The notes beneath the pieces are model-generated. The model saw only the letters and a list, made by a program, of their open reading frames with translations, had not been told where the DNA came from and ran no database searches. 64,000 bases of DNA from positions 1,488,001 through 1,552,000 of the forward strand of contig OY744466.1 of assembly GCA_963556145.1 (NCBI GenBank). The letters are read 5' to 3'. Source of the stretch: Hygrocybe punicea. Taxonomy: Eukaryota > Basidiomycota > Agaricomycetes > Agaricales > Hygrophoraceae. Position numbers and translations under genes: made by a program. Positions within the stretch are counted from its first letter, which is position 1, and every line of letters starts with the position of its first letter. Positions 5,860-28,767 of the stretch are shown in pieces.

Positions 5860-8115
5860 CTAAAAATCCGGCTTTCCGGTGTCGGACCGCTCTCGTCGGT
5901 TCTTTTGGTTGTGCTCGATGGTGGGCAAGGTGACGACGGCGCCGGTGTTTGGATCCGTGATCGTGACTTGTTGTTCTCCGTTTTTATAATCCTTCGTAAG
6001 GGCTTCGGATAGCGTGAAGAACGGGCGGCCGATGAGGATTTCGTAGGGGGCGTCGTCGACGACTTGGACTTGGAGGAAAAGATCGACGTCGCCAAAAGTG
6101 AATTTTAGGTTGGCGATCCGGCCGAGGGTGTCGTTGTCGCTTTTATTTGCCGACTGCATCCGCATCTTCATATTTTGGAGGCCGTAACCGAGTTTCTCCC
6201 AAATATCGTGCCGCATGCCGATGATCATGGAACCGTTGTCGAGGACGCACTCGAATACGAATTTGCCGTTGATGAGCGGGTAGACCGCACGGAGAGGGAC
6301 TGAGTCGCGGCCGACGACGAGCGGGACGTTTTCCTGACAGTGTTGACAGGCGCGAGTGGGGATTTCGGGTGCGTGAAAATGGAAGACCTCGACGTTGTTA
6401 CTCTCGGCGGTGACCTTTTTCGACGTAGTGAGGTCCTTCATGTGACGGCGGGCGTCGGACGACATGGCTAAAAGTTCTCGCTGCGAAATGCAGACTTGAG
6501 AATCGAGCGCGCGGTCGATGACGGATTTGGCGATACCGGGATCTTCGATGGGGGCTTGGTAGCGGTATTGGGGGTGCGATGCGGGAAGGTTCTGGGGAGT
6601 GCGCGGTACAAGGGCGGTCGGCTCGGTCGGCCGCGTGTTCGAAGGGGGGACTATGGTGATCGGCTGCTCGTTGATAGGTCTGGCCGTTTTCTCGGCGGGT
6701 TTCGCGGCGGGGACAGACGTGGAAGTGGTGGGCAGATTGGGAAACGTTTCTCTAGACTTGCCTTTCGCCTTAGATGGGATCTCTACACCGTCGAATCTAA
6801 CCCGTTTACGAAGCCGCTGCACTTTGGCTTCCAGAACCTTAATCTGTTCGTTGTCGTCGTCGATGTCGGACGTCGTGGACTGAAAGATGTCGGCGTACTC
6901 GGTAGTGGCCTCTGGTTCATAGGTGGTTACTTTGACAGCGGAGACGAAGTTAGCTTTGACATGAGGCGGCGGGTCGCGTTGGAACGGTTCTGTGGGGTTG
7001 CGGGCAGGGGGAGCGCGGTTGCCGGGGTTCTGTGCGTGCCACGCGTCGAAGCGTTCCCTCATATTTTTGCCGACGATAGCCTTTGGAAGATACATTCCGT
7101 TAGGCAATACGATGCGGCCGTGCTTGTTCTTGCGGCATATCCCGTCTCGAGTGTACTGCTCGCAAATAGGACAATCGCGTATACGATGGAACGGGTCGTC
7201 GCAAAAGAGGCAGTTGAAATTGGTGAAACCCTGTCCTGTGGTGGTCGGCTCAGCCCTATTTGCACACGGCTTTGGGGGGTTGTTGCGTTCGGTGAGGGCT
7301 TGCGTGAGGACAGCGAGTTGTTGCGAAATGAGACGAAATAGGTCGGATACGTTAGGTTCGACCGGTTCCGCTTTAGGAATGACCGGGTCATAGCGAGCGG
7401 GTGGCGGGTAGCGGGTGGCGGGTTCCATTGGAGTCGAGTACCGGATGGCGGCAGGCGACGTTGACGATAGACGAGAGACGGTGGACGGTTCGGCCGCGGT
7501 TCCGGCCAGCAAGAAGTGGGCGCAATTGTGGAAATCCTGGAAGTCGTAAGGGTCGCTATGGAAATGGTTCGGCTTTTGGTACTGCAGACGGGTTTTGATG
7601 TCCTTTTTAAGCTCGACATGGAAGCCGTTCTCGTACCCGATGTTGCGTTCTCAGGGAGAGATTCGACCCTTGTCTAAGAGGAATCCCGAGATCCGGATGA
7701 ACTCGCGGTAATATTCGCCAAGTTCAGCGCGGGTACGGATACCGTAAGCGGTTTGGGTGTGCGTAAGACGGTCGAGATCCGCCATAGTGTACCGGTGATC
7801 GTCTTCCGTACCCGGGTATAGCACGAGTACGCTCTTCTTGAATGCGGCATAATCGACGCCGGTCGCGCTAGGTAAACTTGCCCAAAGCTCGTAGTCGCTA
7901 AGCGACGCGTAGCGCAGACTATGCTTGATGCGTCCTGCGTCGTCGAGAGTGGCATCGGCAGCAAGTATCTCGACTTCTTCAAAGAAGCGGTTTAAATTGA
8001 GCGGGTTCCCGTCGAAGGTTGGGGCCGTGGAGTGACCGCGAGCGGGCATTTGTCGTGGAGTAACATGGGGAGCGGTAACGTGGGGAGCGGTCGAAGATCC
8101 AGAGGTCGAAGTCAT
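5860..8115 (-). pseudogene. gag: Gag-protease, interrupted by one in-frame TGA
   Basis: Minus-strand frame starting at ATG 8115. The N-terminal gag part has the RFFEEVEIL capsid-like region. A single TGA at 7651-7653 interrupts it, after which the same frame stays open to 5860. At the middle is a CCHC zinc knuckle (C-x2-C-x4-H-x4-C, FNCLFC...RDC). Near the C terminus is a retroviral-type aspartic protease with VLDNGS as the active-site loop and ILIGRPFF as the flap-end motif. DNGS in place of DTGS occurs in related fungal elements. Reading through the stop would give about 750 aa. The lesion looks like a single point change, since no frameshift is needed. The frame overlaps the 5' end of pol. 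Confidence 0.88.
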
Positions 8116-9048
8116 TGTGGGTGGAAGAAGCTGAAATGTCGATGAAGCGGTTGTCGGGTGTACGATGAGCGGGTTGGGTAACGTGGGCGATGACGGCGTG
8201 GATGAAGACGAAGACGGGGACGATGTCGATGACGGAGTTTTCGATGTCGAGAGCGAAGACGGAGACGATGACGATGACGGAGTTTTCGATGTCGAGAGCG
8301 AAGACGGAGACGATGACGATGACGGAGTTTTCGATGTTGAGAGCGAAGACGTGGATGGGGGTTCTAGCGAGGTCGAAGTCGGGGACGTAGGCGATGCGGG
8401 TGTCGAACTGAGATCGGATGAGTCGGGTGTAATGGTAATTATCGGTATATCGACCGATTCGAGACTGTCGGATGAAAGATATAGGGGGGTGTTTGACCCT
8501 GAGACGAGCGGGAGATTGTTATGTCGAGCGAGGTGGTCGGGTACTAGCTGGAAGAAGTCGTCGTCGATTGTCGGGTCGAAGGCGGCTAAAGATAGTTCTT
8601 GTTGAAGAGTTCTTCGAGGAAGTTCTCGAAGACGACGGTCAGAGGGAGGGATACGGGAAGAGGAAGCTATGGTGGTGCTAGACTATTCCTCGCGGTGGGC
8701 TCCAGATGTAAAGGCGAGGTCGGGGTGGCTGCGGAATAATAATCCTAAGCCTGTGGGGTCAGCGTAGAAGTGACTAGGAATAGTCTAACAAGCTTCAGTA
8801 AGATAATAGGATATAAAGAGTAAGAAGCCGCCGAGTAAACTACTGAAATCTATCGAGACCGATCGAAGCCGACGAAGCCGACGATGTCGGGTACGGCGGG
8901 TCAGGTGTCGGGTGACGAGAAACGTAGAGATAAAGGCGGTAGAACGACGGGGAGGGCGTCGAGGAATCCGACGAGCAATGTGTGCGATGGAATTTACTGA
9001 GAGACTTAATTCTCAGAGAGAGGAAATGGGGGAACTGGTTTCTTATTC
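8116..9048 (-). other. 5' leader of the Ty3 element
   Basis: This is 930 bp between the 5' LTR and the gag start, with no convincing protein. It holds a three-copy 45-bp tandem repeat (8231-8365). A related leader adjoins a Ty3 LTR at 29589-30020; shared stretches include GTCAGCGTAGAAGTGACT and GATGTCGGGTACGGCGGGTC. I could not recognise a primer-binding site next to the LTR. Confidence 0.6.
8231..8365. repeat. Three-copy 45-bp minisatellite in the Ty3 leader
   Basis: The motif GACGGAGTTTTCGATG recurs at 8231, 8276 and 8321, an exact 45-bp period. The units differ by a few bases. Because the period is divisible by three, a plus-strand frame reads through it as an acidic repeat, but no coding role is implied. 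Confidence 0.85.
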
Positions 9049-9501
9049 TGAGACGGCGCTTGGGCACCGTTTTTATACTACAAATTTGTGTACCTAGATT
9101 CGGACGAGAGTCCTCGGCCGATGAGAGGAGACAAAGGAGAATAAAAATGGGGAAGTAGGAAGAGCGTTGCGAGGCGACGATGACAGGGAAAATGGGTGGA
9201 AGATATAAAAAACCGTAAAAGATGCAATATACTTTACTATATCCCCATAAGGGAGACGCTAGGCGTGAATAAGGCAAGTCCGATGTCGGGATCCCAGTCC
9301 GATGAGATCTATCTATGATATTTGAAGTTCCGCGAGTTTAGGAGATAGACCGACCAGGTACGTGAGCGGCCGTGCTAGTCGGTATGCATCGGGTTGCGTC
9401 GGGTTGCGTCGGGTTCGAACGTAGATTGCTAGAGACGTCGGGTTCGAGCGGATTCGCTAGATATCGATGTTACGGCCTCAGAGGGTCGAGGACCCTCTAC
9501 A
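9049..9501 (-). repeat. 5' LTR of the Ty3 element
   Basis: A 453-bp LTR. On the plus strand it starts TGAGACGGCG and ends CCCTCTACA. The left boundary was set by comparison with the related LTR at 30021-30507. The flank is GCGAA on the right; the matching copy would lie outside the window. Confidence 0.9.
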
Positions 9502-9949
9502 GCGAAAAGTCGTAAGGATGGTCGCAGGGCGTGTAGCAGGATGCGGACGAAGCGCTTGGGCATTCGGAGACTGTTTTTGGTAGGGTTTTGCATGGGTTTG
9601 CTGCGTGGAATCGCGCGGGTGGGCTCTTGGGGTGTTCTCTGTGCTCAAAGATGTGTTGCTCTGTACTGAAAATCAATATATGAGTGGAATGGGGTGGTCT
9701 CGTCTAGCTGCGTGGGTCAAATCGCGCTCTCATCACCACGATGGAGTGGTCCCGAGGGACCTCTCGGGATCGGGGACGGAATCGCACGGAATGGCTGAGG
9801 TGGATGGGATAGAAGTCTGTCTACTACATCCGGAACTGGCTACTGACTAAGGTCCAGGTCACGTGACATGACAGGCACCACTACTACACTGGATGGTTGG
9901 GACAGTATCTGATATAGTGTAGCCCATGTTTCTTTTCGCCGACCCCCAG
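9502..9949. repeat. Fragment of an unclassified interspersed repeat
   Basis: The reverse complement of 9502-9625 matches 36231-36350 at many positions, e.g. both share CATGCAAAACCCTAC. The reverse complement of about 9800-9905 matches 37835-37905 around GTGACCTG...CCTTAGTCAGTAGC. The Ty3 element is inserted at its edge. I see no credible gene; a plus-strand frame at 9605-9850 has no recognisable domain. Confidence 0.55.
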
Positions 9950-10103
9950 GTAACCCGTTACAGGTACAGATTTAGTGTGACCCGAGGGTGTAAAACTATG
10001 CACCCGCTGAAAAACCCATACCCGTGGGAGAGGTGCGGGTACTTGTGAGGTGTGGGTATGGGTATCCTAAAAAAAACCCAAGAGTTACCCGTGAAGTTCA
10101 CTA
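9950..10103. mobile_element. Terminus of a hAT element (3' end), ACCCG subterminal repeats
   Basis: Dense ACCCG/CGGGT repeats end in ...TTACCCGTGAAGTTCACTA, followed by the octamer GGTATGAT (10104-10111). Read inward, the end is TAGTGAACTTCACGGGT, which pairs with TAGTATATTTCACGGGT at 24470. The TAG...CTA ends, subterminal repeats and 8-bp flank are hAT traits. The left limit of this fragment is uncertain. Confidence 0.7.
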
Positions 10104-10104
10104 G

Positions 10105-10494
10105 GTATGATCTATCTTGCACCCTACCATAAATAACTGACTTTGTCAACAGGTGGAACGTGCATTTACTTTATGGGCATCCAGCCACACTATTCTCGTC
10201 ATTGAGGAAGAGGGAGGTCTAAGGGTAGCAAAGACGAACTTCAAGGCATTTAACCACGTAACTGGCAAGGAGTCGAGCAAGGCTGCGGCATTTGGTGACA
10301 CAAATTGGGGTCCGACTACCCGGGAATATCTGGAAGGGCTCAAGAAATTCCGTGAAAGCTCAATTGACAAGATCCTCGAGAAGGTGCAGAAGTTAGTCAA
10401 GAGCACTGGGACTAGCAGTGGCTCTGGGTCTGGTGTTATTGAGAGTGAGCACAGCATTGGTAAAAAATGTCAGATGAAGACGAGTGTACTCTAA
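10105..10494 (+). pseudogene. 3' part of a split multi-exon gene (rest at 24479-26309)
   Basis: The segment opens with most of an intron (to CAACAG at 10152), then an exon at 10153-10494 starting VERAFTLW and ending in a Ser/Gly-rich tail with a TAA stop. A further splice near 10490 towards an acceptor at 10542 is possible. The family is one of the recurrent agaricomycete hypothetical proteins often found near transposons; I cannot name it surely. It begins exactly at the octamer that follows the hAT end. The 5' exons, in the same family and ending at the same octamer, lie on the minus strand from 26309 down to 24479, so the gene is physically broken. Confidence 0.65.
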
Positions 10495-12017
10495 CTACCT
10501 TCTCCGTTGTGTACATGAAGCTAACAAAACCCCTACTAACAGGACTTGATAGACTCCCGGAATTCACTCAAATGCGTCTCCTGAAAGGCGCCATTTTATC
10601 AGTCTCTTGGGCTGTTTCGTCACTATTCAACTTATGATCTTGTTCTGCTGCCCATCATCTTACCGTCCTGAATTTGTCTTAGCCGTCTTTTTTTTCTGTC
10701 TTGACCATCTTATTTTCATCCAAAAACCCCCCCTGCTCCGAAATATTTTCTGTGCTTGATTTTGAATTTTGAATCTTAGTCAACTTTTTGTCTTGATCTT
10801 GCTTGGATTAAGAAAAAAAGTGTCACACCCTTCTGGATTCAAGGAGGCCCTGTCTTGATGGGAACCTTCTTGATTTCGACTTAAGGAAGGATTAAGATGA
10901 ATTAAGATTGATTAAGATGAATTAAGTAATATTGAGTTTTCCTGATGCATATTCACCCCCATTTTACCAGCTGTTCATGTCAATGCCCTTGACATCATCC
11001 CCAGAAGTGACCCATGACATGGCCCTACCAGGTATGCCCATGGCATCACCAGAAAGCTGCTGATACACTTTTGAGGACTGAGTGTGCATGCAAGGTCATG
11101 GGTCTCCAAAGCCACTCAAGAGAAGCTCTAACTTGAACTCGTGGTGCAAGGGGAAAAGAATTCTTGTTTGTCTCTATTTACTACAGTACCTTAAATACTG
11201 AAGTAAGTAAAAGAAAAGAGAATGATAAAAATCAAAGATAAATGAAATCAGACCTGGCTGCTGAAATTCTGACTGTCCCCAGTCAGATACACAGGGAAAC
11301 AAAAGTGAAGTAAGAAAGGGGGAAGGTGAAGAAAAACAATGAGAATATAAGCAAGGGTGATCATCAATGAGCATGAGCATAGGATGATAGGTAACAGAAG
11401 ATGAGGGCAACAAAAATGACAAGATATGACGAGGGTGCAATGAGGGCTATGAGATAAGATGGGGGCCCAACGAGGGCTATGAAACACAATAGGGTGTCCA
11501 ATGAGGGCTACAATGAGGGTGGTGGTCCCACTGGCTCACCAAAAAAAAAAGAAATCTTTTTTAAAAAAAGGCAGGGGTCTGAAATAGGATGGACATGGAT
11601 GGTGTTGACATTGGCATTGATAGGGACAAGGTTGGTGGCATCTTGATGTGGTCATGCTGTGAAAACACATGGGGAGGTGATAATAACAAGGTGGAGGTGA
11701 CATTCAGGGGGACAGTGTGGGTGGTGGGTTGGAACTTGCTACTTGAAATGAAGCAGAGGGTGTAGATGAAGAAATCAAGGGTAGAATGGGGGTGGAACAG
11801 AGGCAAAGGTGGTGGGAGGGGACAAAGGCAGTGGGTGTGATGGTGATGTTTTGGGGGAACAGCATGGGCACCAACTTGGAAACATTACCTGCTCCAAGAT
11901 CTATCTGAAAATGATGAAGTTCCTCAATTTGTGGAATTGGTGAGCTGTTTGCCTTTCATGCTCTCCTCAAAATTAACTGATTCTTGGCATAGAAAAATCT
12001 TCCCCCACACCTACAGG
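10495..12017. repeat. Non-coding, repeat-like, CpG-poor DNA
   Basis: No convincing gene. Degenerate TCTTGATC/GATTAAG words crowd 10650-10920. The 28 bp at 10920-10947 recur identically at 34705-34732. The stretch from about 11160 to 11990 is strongly purine-biased on the plus strand and CpG-poor. Confidence 0.5.
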
Positions 12018-13457
12018 TAGTGTTGCTGCGGCTAAGCTAGCCGCAAGCCGGTGATATGCACTCAACCATCCTGAGCTCCGATTCCATATATTTTGCGATT
12101 CCTCGCGACTTGATGCAACTTACCACTCTTTGACCTTCCGATCACATCGTGACTATTGCGATCTTCTGCGACTTCAGAGATATTTAGTTATCACACTCCG
12201 AAGTATTTCCTTTGTTCTCTTTGTTCTCTATATTCATTTATCATTCTCCCTACCTATCCTTTCTTCTATATGCCCTTTATCTCACATATCTCCTTTTAGT
12301 ATCATCCTTTCATCTCTCTTCCTTTGTCCTGACAGCTTATATACCTGCCTGTATGAGCCACTAGACAGAGAACCCCCAGAGAATCGAGACAGACCGTCAT
12401 TCCCCCTTCGTCTCAGAGCTTCCCCTTCATCCAAGTTCCCTTCTCTTTACATTCCATCACATTCTCTCACCGTCCGACCCTTCAATCTCACTGCGACTTT
12501 TGATTTTATCGCAACTCTTCGATTTTGATCGCACCACTCCAGTTTTGATCGCAGCACTTCTCTTGAGTTTCTCATCCACTTCTATTCATTCTCCTTTATT
12601 TCCTATACTAGTGTAGGCTTTCTGAAGCTTCCTTGCACCTTTTCACCTTTAGTAGTTGTAGGATTTCCATTCTTATAGCTACATATAGCGTATCACCGGC
12701 TAAGGTTAGCCGAGGCTAAGGCTAAGCTAAATTGAGAAATTCAATCAGCCAGAGCCGTTAGTCATATCTAGCCAGCTAACATGGCTATAGGCTATAGCTG
12801 ATACTCATGCACATCATGCCTGGGGGTACATAGTTTTAATACTAGTACATGACATCTAATATATCATGTAAGAGGGTGGGGACACTGTGTTGCCACTGCC
12901 GCATTGTTGCTGCCATTGTTGTCGTCGCGTCGCGGCTGCTGCTGCTGCTGCTACAGCTGCTGGTATTGCTGCTTGCCACTGCTGCCCTCACTGTCACCCC
13001 CATTGTCCTCGCTGTTACCACTGCTGTTGCATCTTCATTGCTGTTGATGTTGCCATTGTGGTGGGTGTCCTGGTGCTGGATTTTGTCATCCAGCAGTCCT
13101 AGATAGTATAGTGTTAGTAAAAGATAATGAAAGATTAAAATAAAAACTCACCTGGAGCATGATGGCTCTCAACGAGCCATTGTGCTCATGTTTGATTCAA
13201 CGTGATGAGTGTGACCCACCATGTCACAAATGTTACATACACAGGAACCTTCATTTTTGTTGCATTTTAACTAACAAATTCTAGGAAAATAATTAGTATA
13301 CTACTTAGATGACTGTATAGTAATTAGCTGCAACTTAGCTGCCAGCTATGGTGAAAATTTTGAGGCAGCTGTAGCTGGTAGCTGGACCCCAGCTAAGCTA
13401 AATTCAGCTAGGCTAACGGCTACTAGCTGACCACTAGCCTTGGCCGTGGCAACACTA
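12018..13457. mobile_element. Non-autonomous hAT-type element with GGCTAAGC subterminal repeats
   Basis: The ends are TAGTGTTGCTGCGGCTAAG and, read inward from the right, TAGTGTTGCCACGGCCAAG, a 19-bp inverted repeat with three mismatches. Many AGCT/GGCTAAG words lie inside both ends, and a second cluster lies at 12690-12805. The flanking octamers (CCTACAGG and GTGTGGGT) do not match, so one flank may have been lost or rearranged. Internally there is a CTG/GCT trinucleotide tract (about 12930-12965). No transposase is visible. Confidence 0.68.
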
Positions 13458-14449
13458 GTGTGGGTTATTGATCCAAGTCAAGTAAACCACTGAAAGGTAC
13501 CTCAGCACTTTCGGATAAGTCATTGCCTACATTGATAATCCCTCTCATATCATCCAAGAATCTGTTAGAAGACCCACCTGCAACATCTGAGAATCTGACA
13601 GTGCCGGATGTGCAGGAAATTGAAGGCACATGCAAGTTACTTGTGGATTGCCTTTAACTACCATGTCCTCCACCAGAGCCACTTCCAAAGCTAAATAGCT
13701 ATGCACAAGTTTGTGTCCTCAATCTTTTGTGAGTAATGTAATCAAACTGTCAGCATATATTACACTGAAATGTTTGTATCTATGCAGTGCATCAACCCAA
13801 GTCATACTCAATACCGGAATCAATCAAGACACTTTGAATGCCACTGCGACAAGTAAGGGAAAAGGAAAAGCAAATGTTGCCATCAAAAAAAATCTCTTGC
13901 ACATTCCTACGAAGGCTGCAACCCTGAGGTAATTGTACAGGCATCGTTTTTAATGTAAACTGACCTAGTTCCACTACAGAAACCTGTTTGCCATTGACCA
14001 CTGCACCAAGAATATTGTTCTCAAGACTGAATTTGAAGCTATCTGGCAAGGGCTTGATGAGGCAATGAGAAAGGCATGTAGAATTGTATTTCTCCATGGA
14101 TATCCGAACTAAATCACTTCGAAAAGCAGTGCTATGTCAACAAGAGCATACCACTCAAGAGTTCGATCAAGGAGGCAAAGGCGGTAGTGGCAGCAAAGGC
14201 GGTGGTTGGGATGACCTAGGTGCGAACATCCAGCATAGACAGCAGGGGGTAGTGGAGTAGGGGATGGGGCAGGGGATGGGGCAGGGGGAGCACTGGATCA
14301 GGTACCAGAATGAGCAGCAGAATGGGCATTGGATCAGATCAGACAGTGGAGCAAAATGGCGTAGAACAACCAGACTGTATATTACTGGATCGGGATGTTT
14401 TTTATTTGCAATCGCAATGTTTTTTAAACAATGTTACTGGAGAAACTTC
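13458..14449 (+). other. Unassigned region with exon-like fragments
   Basis: Short plus-strand frames at about 13787-13930 and 13981-14110 could be joined by a GTAATT...CAG intron, giving a Lys/Gly-rich then helical peptide. I do not recognise it and it lacks start and stop context. A short GGGGATGGGGCA tandem repeat lies at 14258-14290. Otherwise I see nothing. Confidence 0.3.
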
Positions 14450-14496
14450 CAGCTGTTTTAAAAACGATAGCGCGTTTTCACCGCGAGTAAAAGTTC
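14450..14496 (+). repeat. Left terminal inverted repeat of Tc1/mariner copy 1
   Basis: 47 bp, identical to the reverse complement of 17409-17455. It contains the palindromic-looking words GATAGCGCG and TTTTCACCGCG. Confidence 0.92.
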
Positions 14497-14678
14497 AGGC
14501 TGTACCTTTCCCACACAGAATTTTGCACTGCATTGCATCGGCTTGACCAAAGTTGGGCAAAGAGCAGGGCATGATGAAACATTCTGCGCCGCAGTTTATT
14601 ACTAACTCAAGATGACATCCTGTACTGGTATAAGAGAAGCTCAGAGAGCACATAGACAACCAATTGAACACCCCAGAC

Positions 14679-16063
14679 ATGTACAGCGAAGACAATTTCG
14701 TACCAACAGCTCGATGCAGCAAAACTGCTTATCTTCTCGGGCTAAGTGCGATGCCACCTCCTACACCTCAGGATCTTGCTGTCGCTACTTTCTATGCCCA
14801 ATTGGATAATCTGGGAGCAGTCAATATGTTGCAGCACAATGACACTGGTACAAAATGTAAGTATCCTTGTCATAGGAATATCCGAATATGCAGTATGCTC
14901 ACCTGAATGCAAGCTCGTGTTGAAGTCCAGATTCCCATCAAGCCCAAAACAGCAGGGGGTGCTGTTTCAACACGTTTGGTCTCCTTCGATGAGGACATTA
15001 GTTCCGAGGACTTTCTCAGCCGAGTTTGTGCCTACATGGACCTTCCGCTGGATGAAGCCCAACTTGGGTATAAGTGGAACTTCGAGCATCATGGAGACCC
15101 ACCCCATCGACTATTGACAAGTGAAGATATTACAGAGGCCTTCGACAAGGCAATTCAGTTGTCCAGTTCAAAGCGACAAAAGAAGGAAGTCATAATGGAG
15201 ATTGTTGATCTTGTAAGTTGTATTGCATTGTCCTTGACATTTATCTTGACGCCCAAGTTCCTAGAACCCCCCTACTTCCTCCAAGAACTCGAAGTCAAAG
15301 AAGCGTAAACATGAAACTGAAAAATCAACCGACATACCTGCCAGTATTGAGTTCAAGGAACTCAAGGAGCGCCTCAAATGTCATGAGCACAGCCGTGGGA
15401 AGAACGACCGCTGGTGCTATGTCAGTGCCATGAATCCTGGCGAACATGTTGCTCTCACCATTGAGCAGCTGACGCTCTGGGGTAGGAAAATAGTGAGCAA
15501 TATATCCTAGTTTTATTACTTCAATTTACTCATCTCAGTGATAGCACGATGACAAAGCTGACTATGTCACTCCCCCCAACTGCCTGAATCTTGATCATCT
15601 TCGCAAGAAACCTCATAAACTTCGTGCATCCACTTCCTCTTCTATCAGCATGCCTCCCATCCACATCCACCTTTCTAATAAGTCCCCTCTCCGACCTCTT
15701 ACCAATTCCAAGGTCTATGAAAGTGATAGCAGCGGAGACACAGAACCCTGCAGCGATTACGAATATGAACTCACAGTTGCAGAAGTTCTTCATGCACTTC
15801 ACCAAGACTATCCGAGGCTAAACATGCCGCAATATGAGGCTGACTTGACCGTTCAAGGCATCATTTACGCTTGCAGCGTCAAAGATTTTGACCAGAAGTT
15901 TTACGTGGAAATTGTGAAGATGGCTCTGGGTGCAGTGGGGTTTTTCATTCGCAAAGCAAAAACCATGATAGAACAGAGGAAGTCGAAAGCAAGGGGAAAG
16001 GGGAAAGGAAAAGCAACAGTGCATACCCATGAGAGTGGTGACGAGAATGTATTTACTGAATAG
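14679..16063 (+). CDS. Accessory protein of Tc1/mariner copy 1, convergent to transposase
   Basis: Four exons: 14679-14856, 14914-15212, 15265-15492 and 15545-16063, with introns of 57, 52 and 52 nt (GTAAGT/GTGAGC...AG). They give an uninterrupted 407-aa frame. By eye the protein has (i) an N-terminal region of about 100 aa alternating strands and helices, with EDFL, TSEDITEAFDKA and EVIMEIVDL, resembling a beta-grasp/PB1-like fold; (ii) a 26-residue motif beginning WCYV, with G, LT, W and I at fixed spacing; (iii) a Ser-rich linker; (iv) a helical C-terminal region (about residues 320-390) that could be SAM-like, then a basic KGKGKA tail. The same order and motif occur in the protein at 43552-45142. 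I know of no named family; the fold calls are inference. A role in transposition or its control is suggested by conserved position only. Confidence 0.75.
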
Positions 16064-16138
16064 GCTGGATGGAGCATTGGAGGCCATGTACGAAATGTCA
16101 TATAGCAACTGCGACGAGATTATCTGTACAAACATTTA

Positions 16139-17323
16139 TTATACATAACCGGAATCATGATACCACCCTCTAATATTGTCTGCAGTCATTGTGTCGAAGA
16201 CGGCTTCCCACAGCATGCTGTATGCATCGCACGTTTCCTGACCTGTCAGCTCACCAAGTACGTATTCCTTATTTCTTCGAATCCATGCCTTCATTGCTGA
16301 AAAACCCTCCTCAATAGGATTAAAATCGGGGGAGTATGGGGGAAGATAGAGAAGGCGCATGCCCCTAGAAATTATTTGAGTAATATGTATTTTTGACTTG
16401 CTTAGTGTGGCTTACCGTGCTTCAATCATTTCTCGGGCTCCTTCAAAGTGATGCTGGGATGCATTGTCCATGACAATGACTGAGTTTTGTTGTGGATACG
16501 GATTCATATTGTCAAGAAGGATACTAATAAATTGGCTAAATGCCTCAGATGTCCATGAACGAGTCAGAATGTCAAGGTGTAACACACCACAGAGAGAAAT
16601 GGCAGGGAGGATGGAATACCTGCATGAGTCTGAGCTAGAAGTCTGGTACTGGCTGAATTCAATGCTTACCTGGTACCTCGAACGAAGTAGTCATGCCGGC
16701 GAGCGCATGACCCAACAGGAGCCCAAGCCATCTTGCGCTTGGCAGTGTGGCAGTTGCATGCAGACTCATCGACAAAAACAAGCGTTTCAGGAAGAAAATT
16801 TTCACCAATAGTAAGTTGATATTCGGTGCGATGATCCTTGTCACGCTCTAGCCCAGCACGCGAGACCTGACAGTAACACTCCGTAAAAATGACGTGTAGG
16901 CTCCTATGACAATAGCTTACACATTTTCGAGTGAACCCCCGTCGCCGTAAGCTGTTAGCAATGGTGGCATTGCACACACAAATTCCGCAAGCCGAGATAA
17001 GGTGTTCCTGCATCTCCCACAAGTAGATGTCTGGAGAGCGCTCAATAAGTCCTTCCAAGTACTAACGCCAATATCAGTGTGTGATGTTTCGCTGGCAGAA
17101 TGATAATACATACCACGATGTCAAGGGATGACAACTCCCATGGCCTTCCACCTAGTAGGGGTGTCCGAATGGTCACTCCAGTTGCCTGCCAAAGCTTCAA
17201 GATTTGTTGGATAGCAGAAACACTAATACCAGTAACTTTATGAATAGCAAGTGGTTTGAGATGAATGGCCATGCGAACGATGAGATCCTTTTGCTCTTTG
17301 GGGATATAGCGGCGATTTCCCAT
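16139..17323 (-). CDS. Tc1/mariner-type (DDE_3) transposase, intact, five exons
   Basis: Exons from the 5' end: 17114-17323, 16921-17061, 16866-16670, 16619-16416 and 16364-16139. The introns are 52, 54, 50 and 51 nt with GTATGT or GTAAGC donors. The spliced frame is 325 aa without stops. An N-terminal helix-turn-helix region (residues 1-70) begins MGNRRYIPKEQKD. The catalytic motifs are LVFVDES (first Asp), VIVMDNASQHH (second Asp) and LPPYSPDFNPIEE (third acidic residue). These are the hallmarks of DDE transposases of the IS630-Tc1-mariner group. All three catalytic positions are kept and the TIRs are identical, so the element may still be active. The start lies about 85 bp inside the right TIR. 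Confidence 0.9.
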
Positions 17324-17408
17324 CCTGCTCTTTGGGTGATGCAGGATGCGGTTGACTCAGGAAACCAGTGCAGGCAAGCGCGGGAAAATGATGGCCTTAC
17401 CACATTGG

Positions 17409-17455
17409 GAACTTTTACTCGCGGTGAAAACGCGCTATCGTTTTTAAAACAGCTG
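17409..17455 (-). repeat. Right terminal inverted repeat of Tc1/mariner copy 1
   Basis: A perfect 47-bp inverted partner of 14450-14496. Confidence 0.92.
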
Positions 17456-18489
17456 TCAGCAGGAGACCAAATTTTCATTTAAATATTTCAGGTGTATTTA
17501 AAAATATTTTACATGCTCCAAAATTTTCTAAATGAACAGGATTCTCACTGGGGTTCAGGGTTCATAACCTATTGGAATATATAGTGCAGTGGTTGTTGAC
17601 CACTAAGGTATTTATGTGGAATTAATTATATTTGCCTCTCTCTGAGAGGGTTTTTATACTACTTTCTAAATCTACTAGAAGTTTCTTGTGTTGAGTAGAA
17701 TAACTGCTGCGCTTCAGGGACAGCCTGAGGTGTGTTTGAGTTCCAGGGTCACATGATATGGATTACTAATCCTTTCTGTGACCACTACTAAGATTGGCCT
17801 CATTCATATACGACAAACATCATGTGAAAATGCGTGACAACATCGAGAAAATTGTTATGCAAATGGTACAATGTATTAAAGGCTAAACAAAAACTATGGA
17901 TATTTTTTATTTTTTATTCAAAAAATAATGATCATTTTAAAATTTTGCATCAACTTGAATTGAGCGAGTGAATGACAAATTCGTATTTTGAATTTGTCTA
18001 TCACATGTCCAAACGCAGATGGAATCCCATGTCTTGGGGCTACAAAAAAGTGTAAACGGAATGCTGTTACAGAGGATAAAGAGAATGTGAGTGTCTGCGT
18101 GTTCTCTGAGTGAAAAAATTGACCTGCTTGACTTGATTTTATGATGCTCTACAGCATGGGTCTTAATAGAAAGCTTGCTGCATGGGCTTCCAAAAAGTCC
18201 AGGAGTCATCGAGTTCTCACAGAAAGTATACTTCAAGAAATTGAGATTACAAAACTGACTATCTTCTGATAGATTTTTGCTCCTTTCTTTTTTTTTTTTT
18301 TTTCAATTTTATTGTCCCGCAGGGTCGTACCCTATGTCAGACGTTACATGTGAGTGAAAAGTATTTTTAAGGAATAAAATTGGGATCCATCCCAATTCCT
18401 GCGCCTCTGGTTTATGAATGTAATCACGACGGAATAAGTCCCCCATGACCCCAGCATCTCCAATGCTGTTTTAGATGCCTGGCCTGGCT
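17456..18489. other. AT-rich intergenic or repeat debris, no gene seen
   Basis: AT-rich sequence with only short random frames. About 17650-17790 vaguely resembles the repeat fragments near 9800 and 37850 (GGGTCACATGA). An 18-nt T run lies around 18286-18303. Nothing else is recognisable. Confidence 0.4.
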
Positions 18490-18965
18490 GTGAGGGTTAG
18501 GGTTTGAAAGTCCGGTCCGGTCCGGTTTTTTGACAAATTTTCAAAAGACCGCAACCGGAACCGGTTGCCATAACACCACAAGATGGCACAACCTAGACTC
18601 AACCGCTCAGAACCGGTCTCTTGCGGTTCAGTTGCTGTCTTCTAACCTGATTTAACTGGTCCTTCCATTAACCGGTTGCTAAACCAGTTGAAACCGGTCA
18701 GAACCGAAGTAAATACAATAAATAACAACTAATGTATTAACAATAAATAACAACTAATGTATTAAATTTTAATAAATAAAGTTGGCGGCCACGATTATGA
18801 GCACGTCGGTGATCGCGTTGGGCGCACGGGTAGGCGCAGACGCATTGGCTGCTCTGTTGGGTGCGTGGGTGGTTGTGGACGCGTTGGCGTGTTGGCGGCG
18901 TGTTGGCGGCCCTGTTGCTGGTGTTGTGGTGGGTGCCCAACACGGCCATCCTCCGAGTCCCAGTT

Positions 18966-19020
18966 ACCTCGCAGTTGCAGCGCCAACGTCGATTGACGTG
19001 GCGGTGCACATCCGCGAGGT
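18966..19020. repeat. Imperfect palindrome, copy 1 (element A)
   Basis: ACCTCGC...GCGAGGT arms enclose a core CGTCGATTGACG. The same arms and core type occur at 21525, 28666 and 28768. Confidence 0.85.
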
Positions 19021-19274
19021 ATGTTGGGGGTTGGTGGTGGGATGGCCATGGCCGTCGTCATGGTCGTGGTCGTGGTTGTCGTTGTCGTTGCGGTCGTGGT
19101 GGTCGTGGTTGTGACGGTCATTGTCTGCGTTGTGGTGGTGATGGTGGTGGTGGTGGTGATGTTCGTGGTTGATGTTGTTATTGTCGTCGTCCCATTTGGA
19201 GGGCCGTGGGTGTTGTTGTTGTTGTCGGGGTGGTGGTGGTGGTGGCCGTCATTGTCATCCTTGTCCTCGCTGCC

Positions 19275-19474
19275 NNNNNNNNNNNNNNNNNNNNNNNNNN
19301 NNNNNNNNNNNNNNNNNNNNNNNNNNNNNNNNNNNNNNNNNNNNNNNNNNNNNNNNNNNNNNNNNNNNNNNNNNNNNNNNNNNNNNNNNNNNNNNNNNNN
19401 NNNNNNNNNNNNNNNNNNNNNNNNNNNNNNNNNNNNNNNNNNNNNNNNNNNNNNNNNNNNNNNNNNNNNNNNNN
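19275..19474. other. Assembly gap of 200 N
   Basis: Exactly 200 unknown bases inside hAT element A, next to a low-complexity GTN tract. The sequence there is unresolved and the gap length may be nominal. Confidence 0.99.
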
Positions 19475-19677
19475 TGTTGAAAAAATCCAGTTGTAACCGG
19501 TTACAACCGGTTACAACTCGGTTGCGTAAGCTTCGTCCACATCGGGAAACCGCAACCGGCAACCTCCCAAAAGTGGCCCAACCGCAACCGGCGGTCCGGT
19601 TTTTTTGCGGTTGGGTCCGGTCCAGTTCCGGTTTTTTTCCGGTCCTATGGACTGGACTTTAAAACACTAGTGAGGGT

Positions 19678-20029
19678 GCCTGGTGGTACTAGTGAGGGGT
19701 GCTTTGTAGGGGGGTCTAGACCATATAAGTGCTTGGCCACCGGAGCAGGCATGCACGAGGAAGATGGGGCCACAGGGTGGAGAAGGTATGGTGAGAGGGT
19801 GATCGTCTGTTGGTGTTGGGTCGGGTCGAACGGTGTGGTTGACGATAAAGCTGGGTGGGCATGGGGCGGCATAAATCTTGACATGTATGGGGGTGGGGGT
19901 GGGGGGTTGCTAGTGATGGTGGTGGTGGTGCTGTCGAACAATAGAATAGATCGGGTTGTGAATGTCACCAAGGGAATCTTTCAGTCTGCCTGTGCAGCGC
20001 ACATATTTTATTAGCTCTGATATGCCTTT
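19678..20029. other. No gene recognised
   Basis: G-rich on the plus strand with GGGTGGGGGTGGGGGG near 19889. Probably 3' flank or UTR-like sequence next to the LINE fragment. Nothing else is supportable. Confidence 0.35.
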
Positions 20030-21332
20030 TTTGTTATTGAGGAGGTAGGTGAGGGATCAGGCTTGTGTCCTGAGTGTGTTGGTCAATGAGTGACGTGCAT
20101 TTCGGTAGAGTGGACAGTCGAAGAGGAAATGGTGTACTGTTTCCTTCGCTTGGGTGCATTTGGGGCAGATTTTGGTGTTGGTCTTCTTGATTTTGTGTAG
20201 GTAGGCATTGAGCAGGAGGTGTCCAGTGCGGATTTGTGTGATTAAGCTGGTCTTGGGGCGAGTTAAGTTAGATGTGGTTTTAAGGAACTTGTTAAGGGGA
20301 AAGTCAGGATCGATAGGGGTGAATCGTGTGTATCGTGGCGAGCGCTGCCAGGTGTCCCTCCATTGTATATTTAGTTGTTTTTTGAATGATTGTTTGAGAG
20401 CAGAGGCATTGGATTGCAGGGGTTCGAGTCGAAGGGCGTGGGGCAGGGTGTGTCATGGGCTGGTGATTCCTCTCGCTGCTGATTTAGCCTCTGTGTCGGC
20501 TCGTTCGTTCCCGGCGACGCCACTGTGGCTTGATATCCATTTGATAGTAATGGTGAGGAGGTGGTTGGTATCGGTAAGGTGTCGGGCTGCTTTGTGGAAA
20601 ATGTCTAGGGTATGTTGACCGGATTTAGGGTTTGTTCTGGTGGAGGTTAGTGCACGTATTGTAGGTTGGCAATCAATATAAATGGAAACGTCACATAGGA
20701 GTGTTTCACGGCTTAGTAAGTGTATGGTGAGGGTGCCTGCTATGTTTTCTGCCTCGACATTGTGGTGGGAGTCACTGGATCCTAAGTGATATCGGAGTGT
20801 TCTGACTTGTGTGCGTCTGTTGTGATATAGGACTGCCACTGTGCCTACTTCTCCTTTGAGTGTGGAGCTGTCCAAGTATATTTTTATGTCTGCTTTTTTG
20901 TTGTTGTGTTGCTCGATGGATTTGTCTCTGGCATCGGGTATGGTAGTGTGGAAAGGGGGGGAGGTGGTGTGTGGGTGCATTGGACGTATGGGTTCTACAT
21001 TATCTGGGTCGATATGGAAAAGGTGGGTGAGTGTGTGAAGGGGGGATCTGTGTCTGGCGACGAGGTGTTTCATGCAGTGCCATATAGGAATGTATAATGG
21101 GTGTGAGACGGGGAGGGATGCCATTCTGATGATTGATCTATGACAAATTTTGTGCATTAGTAGGTCGATGGGTAAGATGCCAGCGTGGAGATCGAGTAGG
21201 TCATTTGGTGTTGTTCTGAGGGCTCCAGTGATGGGTATAGATGCCAAACGTTGGGTTTTTGTGAGTTTGTGCATCGCTCTGACTGATCCTTTCCTATGGG
21301 TGCTGTCTGTTGTCTTGTGGACTGGTGTGTAC
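20030..21332 (-). pseudogene. Non-LTR retrotransposon (LINE) fragment: RNase H and zinc-knuckle end
   Basis: On the minus strand from about 21274 the frame holds the tail of a reverse-transcriptase ORF, then a LINE-type RNase H: IYLDSS (Asp), NVEAENIAG (Glu), IYIDCQ (Asp) and SSHSGVAGNERAD (His/Asp). This frame ends at 20453. Downstream, out of frame, is a typical RVT zinc-binding end, CPKC...ETVHHFLFDCPLY (about 20095-20190). The catalytic RT core is absent: the fragment is cut off at 21332, where hAT-type element B begins. It is a 5'-truncated and frameshifted copy. Confidence 0.8.
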
Positions 21333-21524
21333 TAGTGTTGGGGAAGTTCGGTTTGGTCCGGTTTGGGGCCTTTTTGCCCAAACCGGAAACTGAATGGTCC
21401 GGTTTTCCACCCGAAATCCCCAAACCAGACCGGAACCGATGCAAACCGTTTGCATCGGTTCTGTTTCGGTCCAAACGTGGTCTAGACCACGAACCATATG
21501 GGCTGGGGGCCCTCACTCCCATCT

Positions 21525-21579
21525 GACCTCGCAAGAGTGCCGCACACGTCAATCGACGTGGCCGGCCTCATTACGAGGT
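21525..21579. repeat. Imperfect palindrome, copy 2 (element B)
   Basis: GACCTCGC...CGAGGT arms around CGTCAATCGACG; this core is the reverse complement of the core in element A. Confidence 0.82.
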
Positions 21580-21621
21580 GGGTTTGGGGGTTTGGTGGGC
21601 TGCCCAGCCCTGTCCTAGCGA

Positions 21622-22060
21622 AACACACACGTCGAACGCGTGTGTTCGGCCCTGGCTGTTGTCGTTTGGGTGTTGTGGTGGTGGTGGTGGTGGTGACCCG
21701 ACACGTCACACGCGTTGTTCGCGCGAAGGCGGGTTGGACCCGCGATTGCCGTGTTGGCCAGTTTGGGTAGGCGCGTGGTGGTGATGGTGGTGGTGGTGGT
21801 GGTGGTGGTGGTGCCCTATGCGTCATACGCGTTGTGCACGTGACGATGGCCGGGTTGCACCCGCTTTGGTTGTTTTCGGCGGACGCGTGGTGGTGGTGGC
21901 ATAGGAGCCTCTTCGCGTGGGTGTCCAGGCGCGTCATACGCGTTGTACATGCGACGACGGCTGGGTTGACCCCGCGTTTTGGCGTTCCTCGGCGGTGTTG
22001 GTGTTGCGTGGTGGTGATGGTGGTAGTGGTGGTGTTGCGTGGTGGTGGTGGTGGTATGGT
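21622..22060. repeat. Degenerate ~110-bp tandem repeat with GTGGTG tracts
   Basis: Each unit carries a variant of CGTCATACGCGTTGT, then a GGGTTG...CCCGC word, then a GTGGTGGTG run. Starts are near 21622, 21703, 21817 and 21930. Spacing and identity are irregular. Confidence 0.65.
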
Positions 22061-22722
22061 GCCACGTTCTGTGATATACAAATAAAATCAGTGAAAAAGT
22101 CAATAAAAATACATACCACGAAGGAGCGGGGGTGGATGCACCATCCCCCGCTGCTTGATGACTACCATTCCACTCTGTTCACGTTCGTTTGCGTGCGTGC
22201 GCATTGGAGGAGTTGGCGTGTCCGGTGCGGCGTTGATCGCTGCTGTCATGGTCGTGGCCGTCGTGGTGGCCGGAGCCGTCGTCGCCGTCGTGGTGGTGGT
22301 GGTGGTGATGGTGGTGACGGTGGTGTTGGTGGTGGTGCGTCAACCTGTAATGTGTTAATGCGTTAGTTAAAGTTCAAATAAATAAAAATAAAAAACATAC
22401 ACGGGCGGCAGGGAGTACCCCGCCGCCCGTTTTGTCGACCTCGGGTGCTCCATCGTCCTCGTTTGGCATACATCGGGGGTGTTGCTGGTGGGCGTTGGTG
22501 ACTTTGGGTGACTTTCGAAGTCAGCCAAGGAGCCGACTTTGGACTGTCGGTTTGCAGTTCAAACCGAGTTTGAAACCATTTCGGCCCGCAGCCAAATCCC
22601 CAAACCGGAGATCGAACGGTTCGGTCTCCGCTGGAAATTCCCAAACCGAAACTGAGACCAGCGGTTTCGGTTCGGTCTAAACCGGGTTTGGATCGGTCTG
22701 AGACCGAACTTCCCCAACACTA

Positions 22723-24285
22723 CAACATACCTTGACAAGCAACATCCTCGCGGGCCTCAGGCTCTCGTTCAATGCTTCACGATCAGTAACAGACATCTCA
22801 TTTGTGTTATCTGTCCAGTTGGCAACGTCATCATCATCTTCATCCTCAAAACTATCCTGCTCCTTCTGTGCAATGGATTCCTTGATATCGTTGTCCTTTG
22901 CAAGTTCTCTCAGCTCCCTTTCAGCCTTGTTCACTGTGTCTGTGTCATCCCCTTTGGGAACATTGAACTGCCGTACGACTCTGATGGCCACCAATGCAAT
23001 GGTGTGATTGGATTCTCCAGGAAAATCTTGAACGAGCTTTGCAAGCTCATCAATCATCATGTCGTTGCAGCTTGCGTTATCGCATGTTATACTTAGCACC
23101 TGCCCAACAATGGTGAGCACCTCATTGATGCAAAGACTCACTGCAAGACTAACCTTATCAGATATGCTGAAATCATCAAGTATCTTCACAAACGCAGCAG
23201 CCAGGTTCAACCCCGAATGTGACATGGCGACCTCCACCAAATCTAGCAGCATGGATGCCGGGCTACCGTTGACCTCAAAATGGACAGTTGCGGCTACAAA
23301 AGCCTTGTGGTTTAGTGACGTCCATGAATCAGTGGCGAAATTCAGGTTGCCGTCATGCCCTTGGAGCATCGTAGCTATTCATTTACGGGTGTTCACGAAG
23401 ACGTTTTTGACATTGCGAGACACTGTTACCGGCAAAGGTATGTAATATTCAGGACGTCCCGTTTTCATCAGGCACTGGAACCCACGATCGCTAACGATAT
23501 TAAAAGGCCTTTTATTCTCACAGACCCATCGAACAATCTCAGCCCTACCAAAATGGATATTCAATTGCTTGCATATGATAATGCTTGCATACCTTGATTC
23601 CGCTGATGTGTGTTGGCGGTGGGAATATGTAACTTTCCCTTTCTCTTTCTGATTGAATGCTACCTAAATTGATTGTGGATCTAGAAATCCCTTGATTGTA
23701 GTTGTGCGTCACACTTCATTTGCATTGTCGGCCTTATCTGCAGATGCAACTATATCATCTCCCCAGCATTTTTTTGCGTGCTTTCGCATATTGCTTGTAG
23801 ACTTCACATCACCCTTGTCAAGGAACCTGTGGACTCCCTGGGATTTGTGCTTGCACTCAGGTGCTGCACAGACAAAAGTGTGATAACGACGGCTGCTTTC
23901 AGTCCCGACAGTCAGGCGGGGCTTGAAGAATGCATATACTGGTGCAGTCCACTCCTTTGCAAGTCGTTCTGTTGGCGTAAACTTCATTAATGGCTCATCT
24001 GTCATAGTAACTGGATTAATTATGCAGCTCCGCCTCTTCGTCATCACTGTCAACTATCTCAACGGAACTGGGACTGTTCATGGCTGGAGTAGACTCCACC
24101 TCCTCCATGACTATATCACCTTGTCCCTCCAGTATTTCACCTTTGTAAGTGAGTTCGTCGTCTTCAACTTCTTCAAGTGTGACTGATGGCCTCCTCATTG
24201 AAGTCGAATGACTCTTAGGGACTGCTTGCTTGGCAGCTGCTGAGGCTTTCTTGACAGCTTTATTACTTTTAGTTTTGCCTTTCAT
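22723..24285 (-). pseudogene. hAT transposase, 5' half, decayed
   Basis: On the minus strand from ATG 24285 there is an acidic N-terminal region. Then comes a BED-type zinc finger (VCAAPEC...MRKHAKKC, about 23760-23900). Then the hAT RNase-H-like start: RGFQCLMKTGRPEYYIP, SWTSLNHKAFVA, and ITCDNASCNDMMIDEL with the second Asp. A TGA at 23379-23381 sits where relatives have Arg (R-K-stop-I-A), a CGA-to-TGA change. A frame break lies near 24030. The frame reaches a splice donor at 22730, where element B is inserted; the C-terminal half with the hATC dimerisation domain is not present. It belongs to the element that ends at 24470. Confidence 0.82.
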
Positions 24286-24354
24286 TTTCTCGTGTGTGGT
24301 AGGAGTGATTGAGAGTTGTCCCAGCTATGAACTGTACAGTACCAAACCGAATGA

Positions 24355-24470
24355 GTCTTGTATGGTGGGTACGGGTTTAGCCCGGGTCAAAAATTGAGTA
24401 CCCAGACCCAGACTCAGGCCTGTACCCGTTCCATTACACGCGGGTTTACCTGAACCCGTGAAATATACTA
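24355..24470. mobile_element. Terminus of the hAT element (5' end, transposase side)
   Basis: ACCCG/CGGGT words cluster here and the end is ...AACCCGTGAAATATACTA, followed by ATCATACC (24471-24478). Read inward it is TAGTATATTTCACGGGT, matching the end at 10103 at TAGT..A.TTCACGGGT. The flanking octamer is the reverse complement of the one at 10104-10111. Confidence 0.75.
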
Positions 24471-24478
24471 ATCATACC

Positions 24479-26309
24479 ACAGCCGCAGAAAGGGCAATCG
24501 GAACTAGCATCTGAGGCTTCACTTTCTTTGTAGTCAATTTCAGAACATTGATGGCACCACAAATGGCATTGAAATGGGTAGCAAGAGTTTGCGAGACAAA
24601 AAAGGATAAGAAGGCACCACGATAATCCTGGAGCCATTTCAGTAGAATCCAAAACATTAAAATAGACATACCCCGGGATCATCACTCTCTGTATTAGTGT
24701 ACAAAAATTTCTGGTCTTCAAGCTGCTCCTCGGCGAACTCCTTGCAGTCGTCAGTAGAGTCCAACTCCATCGTGCTTTCAAAAAAATTGTTGACAATGGC
24801 AAGGGCGGCGGAGCCGAAGGCTGCATGCCACTCATAGACCCGTTGCTTGGCCTGGAAGTAAATATAGTCTAGTGGATACATTTAGCATTAGAAAACTCAC
24901 GATGCAAAATACAGCTTGTTGTGCTTCAATCTGGTGAGCAATCTTTGGTTGCTCATAGACCTTGTCCCAAATGGCTTGCATGGCACGAACAGCGTCGGGA
25001 TCAACGACAGACCAAGGGTTGCTGCAACCAGCGACAAATCGAATATATGTGGGGATGAAAATGCGGCGCCAGCGATTAGCGTCCTGACATCCGCTAGACA
25101 AATGAGAGTTCTTGAACTTGACGATAGCGCGGCAGCCATTTTCAGCCTTGATTTTCTTCACTGGTTGATTGGCCTGCTCAAGTTTGACCGGCTGCTCAAG
25201 TTTGATGAGTCCCTGAATAAGAGAAAACAGTTAACTCGGGGAGAAAATGTAGAAAAGAACATACTGTGCTTGTGAGTCGTTTACCAGGTGCTTTGATGGG
25301 GCTGGAGATAGCAATTTCCTGCTCGCAGCTTTCGTCCTCATCAGATAACCCTCCTACCTCATTAACAACGACTGTCTTGGGAGGTTCTGGTGCAGACAAA
25401 GTTCTGACGCTTTCACTTGATGTGGTCTTTGATTTCACACTGACAGTGGCGCTAGAAACGTGTGAAGAACTGATGGTGCTTGCATGCGAGTTCGACTTCA
25501 GCTTGGTTGGCCCAGGGACACCAGTGGTGATATTAGTCACCCAACCTTTGATCAACCCAGACTTCTTGTGAGCGGCAGACTCAGACACCCTTCGGTTGAA
25601 AAAGAAGAGAGTGGTTTTGTCAAGAAGGAGCATATAAAAAGGTTAATCCCTTACCTGGGTTTAACCGGCATCACGTTGATGGAAAGAACCTTATCACGGG
25701 ACTATTAATCATATTAAACAATTACAATCGCGTCGCGACTCACACGCCCATCAACATGCTCATCAACACACGTTCCATCACGAGACTGAAAGTGAGGCAC
25801 GTATATAAGTTGGCACTCCACACACGTATGTCAGAGTCACTTACCTCTTCTCTCCCACTGGCAGGCCCCTTGCATGCTGCATTGATTTCCTCTCTCACTG
25901 AGACCTTGGCCTCCTTTTTCTTCTTTTTCGGCTTTGGTGTATCCTCGCGCTCAGTGAGCTCCGACCCGGATTTGTCCTGCTCGGTGGTGGGCTCAGCTAT
26001 GCCCTCAGCATTGGGGGCGTGACCGGCATGACTAAGGTCAAGGTGCGTGGAGGTACGACGGAGAGCCTGAGTGCGTCTGATAGGAATCTTAGCTATTTCG
26101 TCCTCCTCCGCCATTTCATTTTCCAATGTCGCAATCCTGTTGATCTTATTATTGCGTTCCTGTTTTTTCCACTCCTTTTCCTCTGCTTTCTTCATCTTGT
26201 CGGCCTCCATCTCAGCCGCGGTATGTCGCTTTTGTTTAATTCCAGCTCCAGGATGCTTATCAGCATTGGCAGCGCGAGTAGTTATACGAGTTGCATTGGT
26301 GCCTGCCAT
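24479..26309 (-). pseudogene. 5' part of the split multi-exon gene (rest at 10105-10494)
   Basis: Minus strand from ATG 26309. Exon 1 (26309-25845, 155 aa) is Lys/Glu-rich with NNKINRIATLENEM and ends at GTAAGT. Later exons include a short one near 25690-25650, a Ser-rich one starting GGTGTCTGAG near 25590, one with WRRIFIPTYIRFVAG and NPWSV (about 25160-24905), one with YEWHAAFGSAA (about 24860-24675), and one ending at ...IALSAAV. That last exon stops at a GTATGAT donor that coincides with the hAT junction. The family recurs in agaricomycete genomes but I cannot name it. The missing last exons are at 10153-10494 in opposite orientation. Without them the gene cannot make a full product. Confidence 0.65.
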
Positions 26310-26498
26310 GTTCAAGTTGTGAGAAAAGAGGTTTGAACGGTTCAGTCCCCGCCTGTCAAATTTATGACTGATGTAATAAATGAGTCTCCGCCGCGTTCCA
26401 CTTTTGTGGGACCACTTTGCCGGCTATCATGGCCTCTGTTTGACTTGCTATTTTGCACACCAAGGGCTTACTCAAAGGCTTCACCATCATACATTTAA
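26310..26498. promoter_or_regulatory. Head-to-head spacer between split gene and Plavaka gene
   Basis: 189 bp separate two divergent start codons. I see no clear TATA box. It may have been a shared promoter region, or simply the outer edge of the Plavaka element, whose terminal repeats I could not identify. Confidence 0.3.
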
Positions 26499-28665: not shown

Positions 28666-28719
28666 ACCTCGCGAATGCGGCGCCATGTCAATTGACATGG
28701 CAAACGCGGTTTGCGAGGT
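28666..28719. repeat. Imperfect palindrome, copy 3 (element C)
   Basis: ACCTCGC...GCGAGGT arms enclose the perfect 20-bp palindrome GCCATGTCAATTGACATGGC. Confidence 0.9.
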
Positions 28720-28767
28720 GGTATCACGGTGGTAGGGGCTCGTCGCCCCTCTGTCCTAGTCATTGTC

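Follow-up and report, generated by a model that had tools for sequence, protein, structure and literature searches.

The window analysed here is a stretch of 64,000 nucleotides from the basidiomycete Hygrocybe punicea (GenBank assembly GCA_963556145.1, contig OY744466.1, positions 1,488,001 to 1,552,000 of the forward strand). It holds the two halves of a DUF6532-like gene, which lie 14.4 kb apart in inverted orientation, each joined to the end of a hAT-type transposable element here called H. The other participants in the arrangement are a Plavaka transposon that carries the gene, a second hAT-type repeat (R1), and two long terminal repeat (LTR) elements, a short one (K) and a long one (E). 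Positions without a prefix are those of the window, those prefixed C8 belong to the contig from which it was taken, and C1, C7, C39 and C41 are other sequences of the same genome; the features are collected in Table 1.

Table 1. Features of the locus, with coordinates in the window unless a prefix is given.
Feature	Position	Strand	Remarks
Octamer GGTATGAT	10104-10111	+	H target duplication, 3' side; start of the 48-nt intron
Octamer GGTATGAT	24471-24478	-	H target duplication, 5' side
X, 3' end of hAT-type H	9891-10103	+	H 5348-5560 of the C1 reference, 91.5%
Y, 5' part of the same H	22723-24470	-	H 5-2674
Middle of H	C8:1478293-1479598		H 2667-5347, 93%; roughly 10 kb beyond the left end of the window
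R1a, hAT-type repeat, 1390 bp	21333-22722	+	left flank GTGTGTAC, right flank CAACATAC
R1b, partner of R1a, 1478 bp	C8:1479599-1481076		left flank CAACATAC, right flank GTGTGTAC
RNase H half of LINE	20453-21332	-	left of R1a; ancestral GTGTGTAC site of the second R1
K, 3' part	9502-9888	+	Q 9502-9741; 147-bp LTR 9742-9888; in H at 5347/5348
K, other LTR and part P'	C8:1476957-1478292		LTR C8:1478146-1478292
E1, LTR retrotransposon	1-9501, left end at C8:1487646	+	3' LTR 8707-9501
E2, inverted partner of E1	C8:1464660-1476956		as scaffolded; 3.5 kb interior (C8:1468501-1472000) unread
3' half of DUF6532-like gene and left end of Plavaka carrier	10104-10947	+	terminus CATCAGG, read inward, at 10947
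Remainder of Plavaka carrier	24471-34732	-	right terminus ...CCTGATG at 34732
5' half of split gene, inside carrier	24471 to about 26340	-	
Plavaka transposase	26903-27451, 27709-28248	+	PF18759, E 2e-32 and 2.8e-35
200-N run between gene halves	19275-19474		inside the 14.4-kb interval
200-N run inside far E2 LTR	C8:1465130-1465329		
100-N run	C41 (L022 9096-9195)		

The split gene and its carrier

Each copy of the octamer GGTATGAT has a hAT-type terminus on one side and half of the same gene on the other. By direct reading, the sequence upstream of the copy at the 3' half ends in ...ACCCGTGAAGTTCACTA, and the copy at the 5' half, read on the reverse strand, is followed by TAGTATATTTCACGGGT. 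A search of the organism's own genome revealed an uninterrupted copy of the gene on C41, in which the octamer is present once, at 3490079-3490086: the two halves match 3490079-3490408 and 3489624-3490086, so that their overlap is exactly the octamer, and the region reads exon-GTATGAT...AACTGAC...CAACAG-exon, with an intron of 48 nt holding a single octamer. Since the C41 gene is uninterrupted and has the octamer once, both halves derive from a single gene, with GGTATGAT as the target duplication; the arrangement of octamer and split gene is not due to chance. An earlier note, made from the letters of the window, had described one gene and one octamer target with hAT-type termini on both sides, had placed the octamer at both breakpoints in inverted orientation, and had rebuilt a 48-nt intron by joining the halves at the octamer. 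Both sites read as it described, and the intron is seen intact at C41; an intact copy of the gene, such as it proposed to look for in another strain or a sister species, is present within the same genome. The protein encoded by the split gene matches DUF6532 with an E value of 0.0019 and 18.6 bits, under the curated cut-off of 24, and a search with the protein of the rejoined gene returned 1329 candidates, with none at E <= 0.001. The Plavaka and DUF6532 matches and the shortness of the intron point to a basidiomycete-like fungus as host.

The gene is cargo of a Plavaka DNA transposon rather than an ordinary host gene. The window segments 10104-10947 and 24471-34699 align with C41:3489229-3497713 at 95.3-95.8% in five blocks, the window copy having extra insertions. 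In the part of PMC12730594 that was consulted, PlavakaB elements have a Plavaka transposase and termini of the form CATCA..TGATG, with duplications of 2 or 3 bp; by that definition, the carrier resembles them in its Plavaka transposase domain, its CATCAGG..CCTGATG termini and a possible TG duplication, but differs from that description in bearing the DUF6532-like gene, perhaps along with a helicase-like piece, and in being interrupted by H. The latter piece is an open frame within the carrier (32667-33548) that weakly matches the SNRNP200 winged helix and Helicase_C, under the curated cut-offs, and that is perhaps a captured fragment of a helicase. The C41 copy was also considered as a second haplotype of the locus; this idea was rejected, the close match being confined to the Plavaka element over the 60 kb of C41 that were read. 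Because only the Plavaka element matches closely, C41 was taken as a separate insertion, uninformative on the old order of the neighbourhood.

One hAT-type element in three pieces

A full-length relative of H, at C1:6447677-6453232 on the minus strand, served as reference; it is flanked by TATGTGGT and CATGTGGT, 8 bp each and identical at 7 of 8 positions. Compared with it, the parts of H at the two octamers (X and Y) and a third part elsewhere on the contig abut at H 2667-2674 and H 5347/5348, and each is 89-94% identical to the C1 copy; these pieces and their flanks are read directly from the assembly. The blast matches of the middle piece cover H 2664-3720 and 4986-5353, and its final coordinates exclude the overlaps with R1b and the LTR of K. 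Two intervals of the reference, H 1275-2159 and 3721-4985, are insertions of the C1 copy, bounded by short direct repeats, and are absent from the pieces at the locus; the remaining H matches in the window are weak or low-complexity and all fall in H 3721-4985. By these correspondences X, the middle and Y are a single copy of H that inserted normally, and since they are one H on the same contig, the octamer is the ordinary target duplication of that insertion. H is called hAT because of its 8-bp duplications, GGTATGAT at the locus and TATGTGGT/CATGTGGT at C1, and because of its termini. Its sole domain match in Pfam is to the Hermes DNA-binding domain, sub-threshold at E 0.032, and of the 161 genome matches of PF05699 (hAT), those listed all fall outside H, at the locus and at C1 alike.

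The recovery of the middle bears on the mechanism put forward in the earlier note, reversed-ends transposition, in which the 3' end of one hAT element and the 5' end of another insert together into GGTATGAT and the segment between them is inverted. In the maize inversions caused by reversed Ac ends, as far as the consulted part of PMC8225341 describes them, one 8-bp repeat stands at both junctions and the ends belong to two cooperating elements. The locus shares with them the opposite hAT-type ends at the breakpoints and the inverted 8-bp duplication at both junctions. However, reversed-ends transposition requires two elements and would put the inversion breakpoints at the octamer, where the locus has one split element: X and Y complement each other as parts of a single H, the middle of which lies on the same contig and ends where X and Y begin, and the octamer pattern becomes that of a plain insertion once the breaks inside H are undone. 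This mechanism is therefore very improbable. Of the hAT-mediated inversion that the note proposed, the inversion holds as assembled, while the mechanism does not, the breakpoints lying within H at the nested repeats R1, with exchanged flanks, and E, where an exchange is probable.

Exchanged flanks at R1 and a probable exchange at E

R1a lies in H at 2667-2674, and the C1 copy of H is contiguous across CAACATAC. The flanks of R1a and R1b are, to the letter, two 8-bp duplications that have been reciprocally exchanged between the copies, an observation that agrees with what is expected of ectopic recombination. The site GTGTGTAC belongs to a long interspersed nuclear element (LINE), of which the RNase H half adjoins R1a, on its left, and the half with endonuclease and reverse transcriptase extends to the right of R1b, from C8:1481077 on. 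When the two LINE flanks were joined with a single octamer and compared with the genome, 38 of 40 scored matches (from 75 candidates) crossed the join, and the other two were the two C8 halves themselves. Matching 8-bp flanks were found in six of the seven other R1 copies that were read. The exception is a copy on C39 (around 1992919-1993344) whose flanks, ACCTGTGA and GTCATGCC, differ; it could possibly mark another R1-linked rearrangement. A second, broken copy of H at C7:3647001-3657000 holds an E-type solo LTR with further sequence inside, and in it an R1-related element with non-matching flanks adjoins H 2667, not far from where R1 stands in the window copy.

The kinship of the R1 copies was examined on nine aligned copies of the 39 listed (from the best 40 of 381 candidates scored), the seven other than R1a and R1b being a sample biased towards nearness to R1a, since they were picked as its top matches. 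At full length R1a and R1b differ by 3.2%, and R1b differs from the others by 3.7-4.7%; one further copy, L044, is as near to R1a (3.2%) as R1b is. In the left 308 bp the pair differs by 4.9%, as against 3.2-4.7% between R1a and each of the seven others, and in the right part by 2.7%, where the two are mutually second nearest; the top genome match to the right-hand 423 bp of R1a is R1b, at 710 versus 709 bits. These values bear on a further explanation, in which aberrant sister-chromatid transposition of the R1 at GTGTGTAC into CAACATAC within H produced the first inversion, the second still being an exchange between E copies. R1 is hAT-like and makes 8-bp duplications, and the same pattern of exchanged duplications is expected of such an event according to the legend of Figure S1 in PMC2775673, the part of that source consulted on this point. 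It would also accord with R1a being the nearest copy to R1b over the whole length, with the near kinship of their right parts, and with R1b being the best match to the right end of R1a, by 1 bit. Clear nearest kinship should nevertheless result from it, whereas the left 308 bp of the pair are further apart than R1a is from all seven others, and L044 is equally near. Such an origin of the first inversion is thus considered unlikely; an inversion by natural alternative transposition of a hAT element in a fungus, begun by the R1 ends of two sister chromatids and enabling the later recombination between E copies by bringing an LTR element into the one orientation that permits it, so that the nest of transposons would have made its own rearrangements possible, is doubtful to the same degree.

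The second break in H is occupied by K, whose two 147-bp LTRs differ at one site. The K segment 9505-9890 has at least 40 full-length places in the genome, its own included (best 40 of 742 candidates), and a paralogue of K in the window, 71-78% alike and running from 37982 down to 36224, has the order LTR-P'-Q unbroken. An inversion by staggered breaks, with a 150-bp inverted duplication at 9739-9888, was considered and rejected, that segment being the K LTR, which has a paralogue in the window. At the locus, P' runs up to the right end of E2, whereas Q begins next to the right end of E1, with GCGA beside each E terminus; the two E copies, inverted and 98.1% identical over 4969 aligned bases, share the GCGA flanks within K, as an exchange on this side predicts.

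On the far side, the left end of E2 was forecast to adjoin the other half of the LTR that is broken at the left end of E1, near C8:1467103. An E-type LTR ending in CCGT beside the E terminus is present at C8:1464660, and the left flank of E1, ACGG, is the complement of CCGT at the same LTR position. Among 469 columns shared by the four LTRs, four split two against two, of which three group the LTRs as an exchange would, none as the present elements do, and one in the remaining way; at the three exchange-supporting columns the same letters recur in the LTR piece that borders the far gap on its near side. The two LTR pieces bordering that gap overlap and agree at all of 431 sites, which supports the join there, and the gap is probably an unmerged overlap. 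Next to the far end of E2, the segment C8:1464001-1464659 belongs to a further E-type copy, opposite to E2, that ends in the adjoining LTR, indicating stacked E elements. Two other repeats lie in the window: one of about 650 bp inside the interval between the gene halves (12049-12710), with at least 39 other copies at 93-96% (best 40 of 236 candidates), and one at 38041-38853, both strands of which match two places on C41 at 80-82%, as expected of a long inverted-repeat element.

Probable history of the locus

The arrangement is most readily explained by a plain insertion of H, followed by inversions through recombination between the R1 copies and then between the E copies, which would have scattered the gene halves; we give this history a probability of about 0.8. 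H would have inserted normally in the intron of the DUF6532-like gene on the Plavaka transposon, producing the duplication GGTATGAT. R1 would then have entered H at 2667-2674, with the duplication CAACATAC, and K at 5347/5348, with the long element E entering K; another R1 would have inserted in inverted orientation within the LINE, with the duplication GTGTGTAC, and another E within an E-type LTR, with the duplication CCGT. Recombination between the R1 copies would have inverted the segment holding the 3' half of the gene, turning the E in K opposite to the other E, unless E came into K only after this inversion, already so oriented. Recombination between the E copies would then have turned round a further segment, leaving H divided into three. 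We infer homologous recombination as the route of both exchanges.

The order of the two inversions was addressed by a symbolic test on block labels alone, with the rule that recombination inverts only between copies in opposite orientation. In the present order none of the four target sites is restored; undoing the inversion between the E copies restores two, and then undoing that between the R1 copies restores all four, along the one path through the three states that can be reached. Restoring the four sites also restores H and the gene, by the pieces described. The copies stand in opposite orientation before each event in this reconstruction, and E1 and E2 are inverted relative to each other today. 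With all four sites restored, the two E copies point the same way, so that no inversion between them could start from that state; if both steps were recombination inversions, orientation would force R1 to precede E.

Several observations weigh against this history. The R1 copies are nearly star-like, and R1a and R1b are not visibly chimeric. The 5-bp outer flanks of K fit the H site imperfectly, as an imperfect duplication. The far E flank lies 2.4 kb further out than forecast, and the CCGT site, though its position and letters agree, is on the other side of a 200-N gap, with halves unequal in divergence: compared with the left LTR of E1, the far half has 1 difference over 356 sites (with 9 gap columns) and the near half has 13 over 435, and from the LTR at 8707-9501 they differ at 3 of 364 and 8 of 434 sites, respectively. 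The far half serves in addition as 3' LTR to another E-type copy, with inner sequence running leftward, and the far LTR piece (v2b) is just as near to the LTR k1 (5 of 755 sites) as k2 is (5 of 794). The two CCGT halves may thus, on these comparisons, not be one LTR, in which case the CCGT site would be unrestored and the partner of the second inversion uncertain; the GCGA exchange would stand. The placement of the far E site is accordingly offered as a probable one. Moreover, the N gaps in the window and in the E2 LTR bound a block of about 42 kb whose orientation, together with the far E flank, depends on scaffolding, and both exchanges lie in repeats, where assemblers can also swap flanks. 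The gap between the gene halves, which the earlier note does not mention, is probably a scaffold join, and across its 200 N no unbroken sequence fixes how the halves are oriented to each other.

These last points raise the question of an assembly error, either by flanks swapped in silico at R1 and E or by a misoriented block between the gaps, with no inversion in the cell. Both exchanges would be in the right kind of place for it, the block of about 42 kb has a 200-N gap on either side, and C8:1468501-1472000 is unread. R1 is, however, just 1.4 kb long, its two copies differ by 3.2% and in length (1390 versus 1478 bp), and no N interrupts the flanks of R1 or those of E on the near side. In favour of the present orientation of the block, it allows two inversions to rejoin the broken sites; a misoriented block would, by reasoning rather than computation, prevent the pieces from being rejoined by recombination inversions, and two independent errors would be needed. 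An origin in the assembly is thus regarded as quite improbable.

The history of insertion and recombination has a counterpart in the Galileo inversions of Drosophila buzzatii (for example 2z3), for which the consulted part of PMC2775673 reports opposite transposon copies at the breakpoints, exchanged target duplications, and ectopic recombination. The locus described here likewise has opposite copies and, at R1, exchanged target duplications; it differs from that account in lying in a fungal genome, in spanning a few tens of kb, and in probably comprising two successive inversions, through R1 and an LTR element, within one transposon. In further contrast to the Galileo case as reported there, R1 chimerism is not visible, and the locus is known from its inverted order alone. 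Since it fits the signature of Galileo-type inversions and fails that of reversed-ends transposition, it belongs to a known kind of rearrangement, and the action of two different repeat families in turn within a single nest would seem to be its unusual feature. A limited literature search for fungal inversions found no papers, which does not imply that they are absent from the literature.

An inverted octamer with hAT ends is thus, by itself, insufficient to diagnose reversed-ends transposition, and the missing middle of the element should be sought first. In this fungus, a single locus would provide a readable record of how nested repeats can scatter a gene after one insertion, in a sequence of events that orientation would dictate.

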